A model generated the notes under the pieces. That model made no database searches, had not been told where the DNA came from, and saw only the letters and a list, made by a program, of their open reading frames with translations. The position numbers and the translations under genes are program-made. Below, one piece after another: positions 42,346 to 57,551 of a stretch of DNA of 64,000 nucleotides (positions within the stretch are counted from its first letter, which is position 1; each line of letters opens with the position of its first letter). This DNA comes from Paeniglutamicibacter sp. Y32M11 (GTDB lineage: Bacteria > Actinomycetota > Actinomycetes > Actinomycetales > Micrococcaceae). Where the stretch lies: contig NZ_CP079107.1 in assembly GCF_019285735.1 (NCBI RefSeq), forward strand, positions 992,001 through 1,056,000, in the 5' to 3' direction.

Positions 42346-42462
42346 AAGGTCATGAGTTTCAGCAGATAGCCCCGGCTTGCTGAACGGCAACCCTCCACCG
42401 CGGTGGGGTGCCCCGGGTGAAGACCAGGCCCCATATCAAAAAGATGTGGGACAAGCGCGGGA
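42346..42462 (+). promoter_or_regulatory. SAM riboswitch (SAM-IV type) controlling metY-metX
   Basis: The leader contains GGTCATGAG (from 42348), GCCCCGGCTTGCTG, CGGCAACCCTCC, CCGCGGTGGGGTGCCCCGGGTGA and the closing GACC (42422-42425). It is followed by a CCCATATC/GATGTGGG stem and ACAAGCGCGG (42451-42460), which can pair with the GCTT loop as the SAM-IV pseudoknot. This matches the actinobacterial SAM-IV layout I recall. A downstream hairpin (42481-42486 with 42492-42497) without a T-run may hide the start region. High SAM is expected to lower expression. Confidence 0.85.
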
Positions 42463-42534
42463 TTGCCCCCAGCATTGACACGGCCCCACTCGGGCCGGCT
42501 TTGGGCATACCCCAGAAACATTGAAGGGTACGTC

Positions 42535-54429: not shown

Positions 54430-55446
54430 TTACTTTTTCCAGCCCAGTTCTCGGGCGATGTTCGCGATCTCGGTCATCACATGGGTGTTGTAGTCCACGC
54501 CCAATTGATTCGGCAGCGCGAAGAGAACATAGTCGGCCTCGCTGATCGCCTCATCGTTGATGAATTGCTGCGCGACGTCCTCGGGGGATCCCGCGTAGGT
54601 GGGCCCCGAGCGCGCCACCGACCCGTCAAGCACGCCCACGGAGTCGCCGTGCTCGCGGCGCCCGAAGTAGATCTCATCGGTGTTGGTGGTGATCGGGAAC
54701 GCGCTGCGGGTCACCGCCGTCATGCCTCCGGTGCTGTGCCCGCTGGCGGCATACGCGTCCTTATATTGGCGTAGCTGGTCCGCCTGCAGCACATGGAAGG
54801 GGCGTCCATCGTCCTCTAACAGCAGCGTGGAGGACAGTAGATTCATGCCCACCGAGCCTGTCCACACCCCCGATCCGATGGTTGCCGCGCCCCACCAGAT
54901 CCGGTTTTCCAGGCCGGGGGAGAGGGGATTGATGGGCAGTAACGAATCCTGATCGTGATGGCGATCCGGCATTGGATGGGCCATTCCGACCCCGGAGATC
55001 GCGGAACGGAAGCGGGCGGTACGCGCCCGGGTTTCGGTGGCCCAGTCGTGGTCAGGTTCTAGGTCGTAGCCGAACTGGTGTTGACCATCGCGGGCCGATT
55101 CGGGTGAGCCACGGCTGATGCCCAGCTGCAGGCGCCCGTTGCTGATGGCGTCGGTCGCTCCGGCCATTTCTGCCATGTAGAGGGGGTTTTCATAACGCAT
55201 GTCAATGACCCCGGTTCCCACTTCCAGCGTGGTGGTCTTCGCTGCCATGGCCGCGAGCAGCGGGAATGGGGTGGAAAGTGAATTGCCGAAGTGATGCACC
55301 CGCATCCAGGCCCCGTCAAAACCCGATTCCTCGGCGGCCACCGCTAGGTCCAGCATTTGGCGCACGGCATCGGCTCCGGTGGGCACCGGCGATTTGCTGG
55401 AGCCGCCCGAATGGCCGAAGGTCAGGAAACCAATCTTCTTTGTCAT
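54430..55446 (-). CDS. LLM-class flavin-dependent oxidoreductase
   Basis: A 338-aa bacterial luciferase-like TIM-barrel enzyme using FMN or F420. Visible are IGFLTFGHSGGSSKSP at the N-terminus, AAEESGFDGAWMRVHHFG, TTTLEVGTGVIDMRYENPLYMAEM and RLQLGISRGSPES. The substrate is unknown. It lies 152 bases downstream of the reverse transcriptase stop on the same strand; the spacing and housekeeping-like nature argue against it being the retron effector, but this is not excluded. Confidence 0.87.
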   Translation of the reverse strand: MTKKIGFLTFGHSGGSSKSPVPTGADAVRQMLDLAVAAEESGFDGAWMRVHHFGNSLSTPFPLLAAMAAKTTTLEVGTGVIDMRYENPLYMAEMAGATDAISNGRLQLGISRGSPESARDGQHQFGYDLEPDHDWATETRARTARFRSAISGVGMAHPMPDRHHDQDSLLPINPLSPGLENRIWWGAATIGSGVWTGSVGMNLLSSTLLLEDDGRPFHVLQADQLRQYKDAYAASGHSTGGMTAVTRSAFPITTNTDEIYFGRREHGDSVGVLDGSVARSGPTYAGSPEDVAQQFINDEAISEADYVLFALPNQLGVDYNTHVMTEIANIARELGWKK

Positions 55447-55597
55447 GCGTGCTCCGATCGATGGCTGCGCCGGGAAACTCCTGCTTCTAGGTACAAGCGA
55501 CGCAAACGAGAAAACATTCCATCAAGAAATGATGGTTATCTCGCCCATGGGCTTAATGCGGTCATATGCCCCGCACGTGTAGGGATTATCTGGAGGG

Positions 55598-56983
55598 CTA
55601 CCACTGGATTCGATGAAAATCATGCAGCAGCTTGGTGCCTCGGTCTGGATTGAGTGCAGCTACCCACGAAATATGTCCCAGTAGATAGCCGCGGAAATCA
55701 GTGTGGGCCTCCCTGTTTTGCGATTCCGGCCCCGTGGAAAGGCAATTGTGGAGGATCGCTTTGAGCCGGTCAAAGTCCGAACGGGTGACATTGGGGTGCT
55801 TGTTGACCACCACTGATGTCACCAATTGCCGAACACTGGCAGGGCGCACATGTGTTTTTAGCCGGTTGGCTTCGTGGCCCTCGGCTTCAATGATGCTGAT
55901 GGCAGTACGAATGAAGGCAGAGGTTCGCCGTGCTAATTCCTTGCCGCCGCTGAAGGCGAGGTCATCGGCGTAGCGGGTGTAGCGGGCGTCGAACTTTTTC
56001 GCGAGTCCGGAGAGACGGGAATCCAGCCTCCGCAAGGACAAATTTGCCACCATGGGTGAAGTTGGCGCTCCTTGCGGAAGATGCGGCAGTGAGAGCGCCT
56101 GCCGCAGCGCAAAACGTTCGGTGGGATTGCCGCCGTCAGGCATCAGGGACAGGACCCTCGGTGGGACTGAGTGGGTGCAAAGGCCGGTGAGTCGATGCGC
56201 TACAGATTCGGTATATCCGGCTTGCCGGAGCGTACCAAATACTCGCCCGGCGGGGACCTTGGCGAAAAATGTCACCAAATCGAGGTTGATCACCACCTCC
56301 TGACCGGTGTGCTGTGCCGCTCCGGTGCCTGCGCTTCGGCCTGGAACAAATCCGTGGGCGGCGCCATGGAGCTCAATGGGGTACAGCAGCTCCCGGAGCA
56401 CAGTCCTTTGAATTTTTCGCAAACGTGGGGCAGGAATCTCCAACAATCGCGGAAGCCTGCCCGGGCGCTGCCGCCACTCGTAGCGGTAGTGCTGAAGCTT
56501 CCGTTCGGCCTTCCGGTTCCAATGTTGCGGATCGGAAAACCATTCCAACTCCCCATAGGTGAGCTCGAGCAGTCCGGCGAGGCTGGCCAGGGTGTCAAGG
56601 CGGGGAATCTTGGGCTGCCTATTCTCACGGGCCGTTGCGGGCCTAAGTACATAGTTGGCCATGCGCAGTGGTTTTCGTTGATGAGCTGCCTTGGCTACGG
56701 CCTCGGCGAAGGGCTCACTCAGGAGGATCGTTGCGCTCAGTTCGCGAGGAGCGTCGATGGGTGGCCGCGGATACAGGTGCAGAATCTGGGTTATCAGGGG
56801 ACCCAGCCAACGCCGTCGTGCGCCTAAAACATGCGCGCCGGCGCTGATGAGTTCGGTCTTTGCCCATCGTGGGGAACCGAGGAATGCCTGCGCCAGTGTC
56901 GCTGCAATGGCTGGCGCTGTGGGGTGGGGCGTGCGCCTCAGCGTTGCCGAGGCGGGGGTCACCGGGGCAGGGTCACTTGTCAT
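55598..56983 (-). CDS. Retron-type reverse transcriptase
   Basis: A 461-aa RNA-directed DNA polymerase. RT motifs in order: GFVPGRS (211-217), AAQH (222-225, in place of the retron NAxxH), INLDLVTFF (catalytic Asp235), LPQGAPTSP (302-310), RYADDLAFSGG (catalytic Asp340 and Asp341) and LVTSVVVNKHPNV (387-399), the position of the retron VTG motif with Ser for Gly. About 180 residues precede the RT core, including RRRWLGPLITQIL and PPIDAPRELSATIL; this length recalls the long myxobacterial retron RTs such as Mx162. No maturase, X or integrase domain is present. ATG 56983 is chosen because upstream sequence fits a retron RNA; GGAG lies 12 bases before it. The probable function is msDNA synthesis in phage defence (inference). 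Confidence 0.88.
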   Translation of the reverse strand: MTSDPAPVTPASATLRRTPHPTAPAIAATLAQAFLGSPRWAKTELISAGAHVLGARRRWLGPLITQILHLYPRPPIDAPRELSATILLSEPFAEAVAKAAHQRKPLRMANYVLRPATARENRQPKIPRLDTLASLAGLLELTYGELEWFSDPQHWNRKAERKLQHYRYEWRQRPGRLPRLLEIPAPRLRKIQRTVLRELLYPIELHGAAHGFVPGRSAGTGAAQHTGQEVVINLDLVTFFAKVPAGRVFGTLRQAGYTESVAHRLTGLCTHSVPPRVLSLMPDGGNPTERFALRQALSLPHLPQGAPTSPMVANLSLRRLDSRLSGLAKKFDARYTRYADDLAFSGGKELARRTSAFIRTAISIIEAEGHEANRLKTHVRPASVRQLVTSVVVNKHPNVTRSDFDRLKAILHNCLSTGPESQNREAHTDFRGYLLGHISWVAALNPDRGTKLLHDFHRIQW

Positions 56984-57010
56984 GGGTGCGATGGTTCTCC
57001 GATGACCTAG

Positions 57011-57190
57011 CTGTCTGTGCGGGTGCCGAGCTGCGCGAAGCGCAGAGACGCACCTGCGGTGCATGGATCAGGCAATACTGCGTACCCCGGGGTATCCCCG
57101 GAGAGGAACGCGTGCTAAAAGACGCTTCCCACCTCATCGAAGAAACCATCGCATAGTGCCATGCTAACCGAAGGCCGTGACACAGTCAGC
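57011..57190 (-). ncRNA. Candidate retron msr-msd RNA
   Basis: Directly upstream of the RT gene on its strand. GCTGACTGTG (57190-57181) can pair with CACAGACAGC (57020-57011), nine of ten positions, as the a1/a2 repeats that bound retron RNAs; the a2 end lies 27 bases before the RT start. Just inside a1 is TTAGC, like the sequence holding the branching G in several retrons. It is followed by a GCAT/ATGC stem, a CCGGGG/CCCCGG stem and a compound hairpin GGTGC...CTGCGC-TTC-GCGCAG...GCACC that could be the msd stem. Read by eye, not folded by program. Confidence 0.45.
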
Positions 57191-57551
57191 GAAACCTCCA
57201 CGGATGAGCACCAGCGGCAATTCCACACTGACCAGCGCTACCAAACACGGCTGAAGCCCTACACGGAAGTTCCTAGATCTTTGGCGCTGCTGTGCGCTGC
57301 CGAGTCCTCGAGCCTTGGGTCGTTGAGCCCAGCCGGGCACGACCCCACTATGCCGACGATCAAGCGGCCCATCTTGGGCTGGTTCATCCGCGTTGTTGCC
57401 GCATGACCAAAATAAGAGGGGCACGTTTTTCCTTTACCCGCAAATGTTCGTGGGCTCGCTCCAAAGTTGGAAGTCCACGCAATATTCGCGTGTGATGCAC
57501 AAGTCTGCACTTCGGTGGTACGGATTTGGATCTATTTGAGAGAATGGGTTA
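57191..57551. other. Divergent intergenic region, retron and dusB
   Basis: About 360 bases between the candidate msr-msd RNA and dusB. It must carry the retron promoter (minus) and the dusB promoter (plus). Short frames on both strands show no domain. No IS ends or att-like repeats were recognised. Confidence 0.35.

Follow-up and report, generated by a model that had tools for sequence, protein, structure and literature searches.

The reverse transcriptase (RT) gene of this locus raises two questions: whether it belongs to a genuine retron, and how a retron could act when no effector gene stands beside it. The window, which is the whole stretch of 64,000 nucleotides from Paeniglutamicibacter sp. 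Y32M11 that was analysed, holds this gene among housekeeping genes, and an earlier note on the same DNA had called it retron-like. A structured RNA of about 170 nt, behind a conserved -10-like box, immediately precedes the intact RT of the window, and RNA and RT occur together among relatives. Our main reading, to which we give a probability of roughly 0.7, is that of a complete two-component retron whose output would likeliest run through an unlinked chromosomal partner, and in which the N-terminal extension of the RT would be an interface of the particle and no toxin.

The RT gene lies at 55598..56983 on the minus strand and encodes 461 residues, with its ATG at 56983, 3 nt after the 3' arm (a2) of the RNA. 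The longest open frame is 55598-57064 (-), of 488 residues, and its start was discarded because it falls within the msd template. The translation contains the LPQGAPTSP and YADD motifs that had been read from the sequence before, and the two retron features proposed with them are also there, AxxH as GAAQH in region X and VTS at the VTG position of region Y. In GAAQH the A and the H of the NAXXH motif are kept and the N is replaced by G, a position which is also substituted in Ec48 and Mx65 (PMC6868368). The region Y triplet of retrons is found in the family, with VTS in the window: among 44 parsed proteins, which are 43 family members and the RT L144, it reads VTG in 24 and VTS in seven, and is another triplet or was not found in 13. 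RVT_1 is the only Pfam match in the protein. The RT is under purifying selection, with dN/dS values of 0.12-0.16 (NG86) and 0.14-0.18 (YN00) for the RT core and of 0.35-0.42 and 0.43-0.57, respectively, for the N-terminal extension. An AlphaFold model from three sequences has a mean pLDDT of 37.9 and is unusable.

Profile scores place this protein with retron RTs. It matches the PADLOC models RT_other (PDLC02949) with 576 bits and RT_outgroup (PDLC03740, labelled retron) with 543 bits, in both cases nearly end to end and over most of the N-terminal extension, followed by RT_XIII with 288 bits and RT_III-A with 227 bits; eight further relatives show the same scoring pattern. The NCBIfam models score far lower, the group II maturase at 43 bits (cut-off 300) and Drt2 at 35 bits (cut-off 390), and there is no DGR-specific match among the NCBIfam matches listed for the window RT. 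The best-scoring solved chains by sequence are the retron RTs Ec86 (E 3e-23) and Ec67. In the RT tree, the family of the window RT is split with a support of 100/100 from six RTs whose scores exceed the group II cut-off; grouping with group II intron RTs, which the earlier note had named as a refutation, is not what the tree gives. This tree has a midpoint root and lacks DGR, UG, and Abi RTs, and the program warns of long branches meeting; it leaves out four of 48 proteins (L041, L051, L052, and L137) and takes seven of 18 further RTs, which are the six with group II scores and L074, which matches retron models below their cut-offs. Its only other retron-type rows, L074 and L144, are both long branches. 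On these scores and this topology, the RT belongs to the retron clade, apart from group II intron RTs.

A complete msr-msd-like element is found directly upstream of the RT, at 56984-57169 on the minus strand. The region delimited in the earlier note, which reaches to 57190, does cover this RNA, and the RNA itself was left undescribed there. A retron msr-msd is closed by an inverted repeat of 8-30 nt, its msr has one to three hairpins of 7-10 bp and its msd forms one long hairpin (PMC6868368), and counterparts of all these parts are present. The element begins with a -10-like box, TAGCAT (TANNNT), at 57161..57166 (-), which ends 7 nt before the a1 arm, has its T, A, and T invariant in the 29 aligned loci and is probably a promoter element. 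The arms of the long inverted repeat of about 20 nt are a1, at 57134..57153 (-), and a2, at 56987..57005 (-), which together form the alignment-derived helix 1, with 19 pairs, 15 of them with changes on both sides, and 95.6% of the cells paired. Just after a1, at 57132..57133 (-), is the candidate priming (branching) guanosine, G57133, in a GAGG that is invariant in 29 of 29 rows. Its position next to the a1/a2 stem matches that of known retrons (PMC6868368), and the tetranucleotide is absent from the priming motifs listed in the same source, which are TAGC, the usual one, CAGC, GAGC, CAGA, and ACGC.

Two msr hairpins follow. Hairpin 1, at 57105..57130 (-), is variable in sequence, with 88.1% of the cells paired and changes on both sides in three of five consensus pairs, while hairpin 2, at 57085..57103 (-), is a near-invariant stem of 8 bp with a 3-nt loop, in which all cells are paired (100%) and which gives little covariation evidence of its own because six of its eight pairs never vary. 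The candidate msd template, of at most 79 nt, occupies 57006..57084 (-) and contains helices 5 and 6 and a long hairpin at 57019-57057, with 13 consensus pairs and internal loops; all seven pairs of helix 5 have changes on both sides. The msDNA is predicted to be the complement of this template. Taken with the class of the RT, this architecture supports the view that the system is a putatively genuine retron, beyond merely retron-like.

The conservation of the RNA is seen in an alignment of the DNA upstream of the RT at 29 of 30 relatives, in which the conserved block ends just before the RT start. The block is not coding, because its frame relative to the RT takes all three values among the relatives. 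It is 100% and 94% identical in comparisons that give 83% and 63% identity for the 250 nt upstream of it. The fold of the single sequence is 5.2 standard deviations below that of shuffles (z-score -5.2), and RNAalifold gives 48 pairs, 26 of them with compensatory change. With 27 distinct rows, 96.2% of the cells are paired, against 84.3% in shuffles, and changes on both sides occur in 160 cells, against 49 in shuffles. The covariation score is 0.367, against 0.146 for shuffles and at most 0.083 for slid versions of the structure, in which 42-47% of the cells are paired, a control that leans in favour of the structure because the structure came from the same rows. The earlier note had named as another refutation that related genomes might carry the RT and lack any conserved RNA before it; what the relatives have is an RNA with strong covariation. 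No family of Rfam 15 matches this RNA at the gathering threshold, the best being an 11-bit chance match, and a known Rfam family was discarded as its identity.

A genome search with the model alone does not lean in this way and is an independent test. The covariance model, built on the 29 rows, was applied with no protein information to 347 genomes of the order, and it matched 13 of them, once each (E<=1e-4). All 13 matches are immediately upstream of an RT of this family and on the same strand, and ten are in genomes outside the training set of the model, in other families. The RTs beside the matches have no in-frame stop in their aligned part except one (L127). In the window the true match scores 184 bits, the best unrelated match 18.9 and the antisense of the msd hairpin 21.7. 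Starting from the protein, nine family RTs outside the model were tested (L114, L115, L116, L117, L141, L142, L143, L145, and L146), and the RNA is found just before the RT in eight (E<1e-4); at the ninth, L116, there is no acceptable model match (12.7 bits; none at E<=0.5), and the upstream fold at L072, which is the same place, is similar by eye. Distant RTs, left out of this count as non-family members, have no model match (L065-L068, L074-L076, and L144, a Methylobacterium RT of 35% identity).

The family is seen mainly in actinobacteria and is spread over Actinomycetota. The RNA also precedes the RTs of Burkholderia pyrrocinia and B. arboris, which have 45-46% RT identity, as well as those of Tsukamurella and of a Dietzia plasmid, and its presence with the RT in Burkholderia extends the system beyond actinobacteria. 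Of 295 genomes of the host family, 30 contain a relative with at least 57% identity (as listed), which in G028 is 5'-truncated, and two more (G291 and G096) contain broken RT copies; in the remaining 21 genomes with a match, the RTs are distant ones. In a phylum sample, five of 396 genomes exceed 450 bits with PADLOC RT_outgroup. The RT matched 53 plasmid records, of which five were taken into the comparison. Damaged copies include a split RT (L063), a fragment (L064), a 5'-truncated one (L062) and the one with the in-frame stop, and the RNA is kept at the split copy and is absent, by model search, at the 5'-damaged L062 and L064.

The neighbours of the RT are as the earlier note had them, glyS, a GNAT gene, and a luciferase-like monooxygenase (LLM) gene on one side and dusB, an HD domain/dgt gene, and dnaG on the other, with the RT between the LLM gene and dusB. 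dusB is present in 15 of 15 genomes of the genus and this RT in four, three of which have it at the LLM-dusB site. Paeniglutamicibacter gangotriensis and P. terrestris are among the carriers of the locus. A blastn comparison with the dusB region of these 15 genomes delimits a stretch of 2.03 kb, at 55441..57471, which contains the RT, the RNA, and flanks and is absent from four genus mates (L102, L103, L105, and L107). In these genomes, 51-61 nt separate the aligned blocks that are 2,031 bp apart in the window, and the LLM gene runs into the dusB promoter. RT and upstream RNA therefore come and go together, both being missing at the four empty sites, as the earlier note had asked of related genomes. 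Its description of the system as embedded in a housekeeping block is valid for three genomes of the genus and not for the family as a whole, which occurs in many other places, and the site itself is variable. The LLM-dusB interval of eight further genomes (L101, L104, L106, and L109-L113) contains other DNA or DNA with no similarity.

How the pair reached this site was also considered. Terminal repeats that could bound the insert are chance-like ones only, and a repeat-bounded insert was discarded. Phage carriage was discarded as well: the best RT matches in the phage collection have at most 34% identity, and viral contigs gave none in a scan that detects close relatives only. Descent that is vertical in the main, accompanied by many losses and local moves, is apparently to be favoured, because the 26 Micrococcaceae rows form one group in the RT tree (100/99), and the rows of families f80, f87, and f88 likewise, in a tree with several open inner forks and in which four families are few. 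RT and RNA move as one unit, and apparently do so rarely.

If the system is a retron, an effector would be expected as a linked or fused third part. Genes near the RT were compared at 45 of 46 loci (L064 was left out), in 21 contexts, with open frames of at least 80 aa within 6 kb, and no partner gene is common to them; effectors below 80 aa, or acting as RNA, fall below the reach of this comparison. Three gene families occur in three contexts each, and none occurs in more except an ABC transporter ATPase, found in six. This oligopeptide ATPase (Pfam ABC_tran/oligo_HPY) was rejected as partner, since it adjoins the RT in a single context, where it lies 13 bp downstream in convergent orientation, and is at least 735 bp away in the others. 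dusB, the LLM gene, and other local genes were also discarded, as they are specific to this site. The same thresholds were applied as a positive control to four other retron-type RT loci of Micrococcaceae (L065-L068), where one gene is common to four of four loci, ends about 400-460 nt ahead of the matched RT segment, has 22-31% identity in matching pairs and matches PRTase_III-A in L066. The control recovers this PRTase partner, so the comparison can find retron effectors. The earlier remark that no effector is adjacent is thus supported for linked genes over the 21 contexts, and no known effector domain was found in the RT protein or its extension. These results support a putative retron that has no linked effector and departs, among the loci compared, from the tripartite plan with a linked or fused one.

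The N-terminal extension had been put at about 180 residues, which is too long: in the 461-residue form the part that other retron RT models lack has about 120-125, and the RT_XIII match starts at residue 146 of the 488-residue form. The extension corresponds to 56612..56983 (-), about 124 aa; nothing in Pfam matches it at E<=10, and nothing in the PDB does so credibly. Its conserved pattern consists of a W, an L, G..RRW, and PRPPxDAPREL. A profile of the extension matched 14 of 248 genomes of the order; 12 of the matches are on retron RTs already located with the RNA model, another (G791) is on a further RT with the RNA, and one weak match (G829, E 1.5e-4), which was rejected, is not on this RT and has no RNA. 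As judged from these matches, the extension is private to this RT family within the 248-genome sample, bar the weak one. Most parsed members have the extension in some form, with a length of roughly 85-125 aa, about 85-100 aa in L114 and L141-L143, and it is under purifying selection that is looser than that of the RT core. At L115, which is the same place as L071, about 30 aa separate the RNA from the core, and RNA and RT are kept. The suggestion that the extension is the active part of the system is weakened by this locus and by the lack of a known domain; a structural or RNP-interface role fits better than a toxin.

In the proposed mechanism, transcription would start at a1, and the a1/a2 stem would present the G of GAGG, from whose 2'-OH the RT would prime as in known retrons (PMC6868368). 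The msd hairpin would be copied into a single-stranded DNA of at most about 79 nt, and this msDNA would stay bound in an msDNA-RT particle (PMC6868368). We infer msDNA synthesis from the architecture described above. The particle would hold or signal to an unlinked partner, with the extension as part of the interface, and this partner is a guess. Our first preference is an unlinked partner with a role in defence or stress, our second a toxin-free host function, and our third the extension as effector.

The second of these would give the msDNA particle a host job of its own without a toxic effector, for example in DNA repair, mutagenesis, or titration of phage components, like the little-understood myxobacterial retrons. 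It would account for a system of two genes only across 21 contexts, for a retron tree that follows host families, and for the poor matches in phage and viral sequences, and it has precedents in some retrons without linked effectors (PMC8867640) and in the myxobacterial ones, which look vertically inherited (PMC6868368). The patchy presence, in 30 of 295 genomes, is more like that of an accessory defence gene than of a core function, and we regard this explanation as a tentative one on the unlikely side. A further reading is a toxin-free lineage, in which RNA and RT follow Actinomycetota host families, and also occur in Burkholderia, with an msDNA-RT particle that has its own N-terminal domain as the working product; such a lineage, which seems possible and only slightly less doubtful, would, if true, go against the rule that retrons guard toxins. 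The extension could instead be a fused effector, killing or arresting the cell once a phage disturbs the msDNA, as in the RT-fused retrons, and the PADLOC retron models do include RT-Toprim, RT-TIR, and RT-Protease fusions. Its retention in most members under purifying selection, and its near-restriction to this RT, would agree with that role. We consider it improbable, as the extension resembles nothing in Pfam or the PDB, evolves faster than the RT core, and varies between about 85 and 125 aa, with only about 30 aa at L115/L071, where RNA and RT are nonetheless kept.

Two further explanations would deny a working retron altogether. The broken copies L062, L063, L064, and L127 could suggest a degenerate or selfish remnant without function, which is disfavoured by the selection data and seems very improbable for the window, where the copy is intact with a core dN/dS of about 0.14 and where the RNA is more conserved than its flanks and shows compensatory changes among relatives. 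Another RT class, such as a group II intron, DGR, or UG/DRT enzyme with a conserved leader RNA, is the least probable reading of all; DRT systems also use neighbouring RNAs, and region X has G for N, but the HMM scores, the tree (built without DGR, UG, and Abi RTs), the succession of a1/a2 stem, priming G, and msd hairpin, and the retron RTs Ec86 and Ec67 as best solved chains all argue against it. The preferred reading remains the two-component retron with an unlinked partner.

Among known systems, the PADLOC models RT_other and RT_outgroup match this RT, including most of the extension, and are protein models only; with its RT family among the PADLOC models, the locus would probably be picked up by a retron caller. 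The similarity with the type XIII and III-A retron RTs is in the core (288 and 227 bits), and the PRTase partner gene of III-A, which is found in other Micrococcaceae, is at none of the loci compared for this RT family. Ec86 (Eco1) has the same layout of region X, YADD, and region Y as the window RT (PMC6868368), which differs by its additional N-terminal extension; near the loci examined here, no partner gene is shared. The myxobacterial retrons Mx162, Sa163, Mx65, and Ne144 likewise have a long RT with an N-terminal extension, a resemblance in length only, and are likewise apparently inherited vertically, while their priming motif is CAGC or GAGC, against GAGG here, and the msd of Mx162 has 162 nt, against at most about 79 nt here (PMC6868368).

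Putative actinobacterial retrons are known from sequence surveys (PMC6868368). Titles and opening lines of abstracts in the literature, a scope that leaves aside the Mestre 2020 classification and the 2021 RT review, mention no actinobacterial msr-msd of this kind, and an earlier description may stand in either of those two works; passages of PMC8934634, PMC9252829, PMC12548924, PMC11124354, and PMC12262390 hold nothing further on this retron family. As of 2022, the retrons characterised experimentally were those of Delta-, Gamma-, and Alphaproteobacteria and of Bacteroides (PMC8867640), so an actinobacterial msr-msd gives this phylum a defined test substrate. The locus is a clean case of a retron without linked effector, with one RNA, one protein, and sister genomes that naturally have or lack it at a defined site, and the function of effector-less retrons becomes directly testable with it. 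In Gram-positive hosts, the RNA may also find use as a GC-rich msDNA scaffold.

The closeness of RNA and gene may bear on the expression of the RT. Because the start codon is 3 nt after a2 (56981-57007), any ribosome-binding site would sit in the a1/a2 stem, and RNA folding may limit RT translation; the annotated RT starts of L141-L143 are 6-12 nt after the RNA. L004, L007, and L027 have no in-frame ATG, GTG, or TTG from a2 to the conserved RT sequence. L004 has a CTG exactly at the place of the ATG of the window, L027 has a distant ATA as its only nonstandard start, and L007 has no nonstandard start among those looked for; in all three the RT frame is open throughout the RNA, and a non-AUG start or a start within the RNA is possible. 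Contig 1 of another genome, G142, has five equal-scoring distant RT matches in open frames of 470 aa, which are probably copies of one element, for which the label intron-type is a guess. Elsewhere in the window, a SAM-IV riboswitch is found at 42348-42463 (+), with 112.5 bits.
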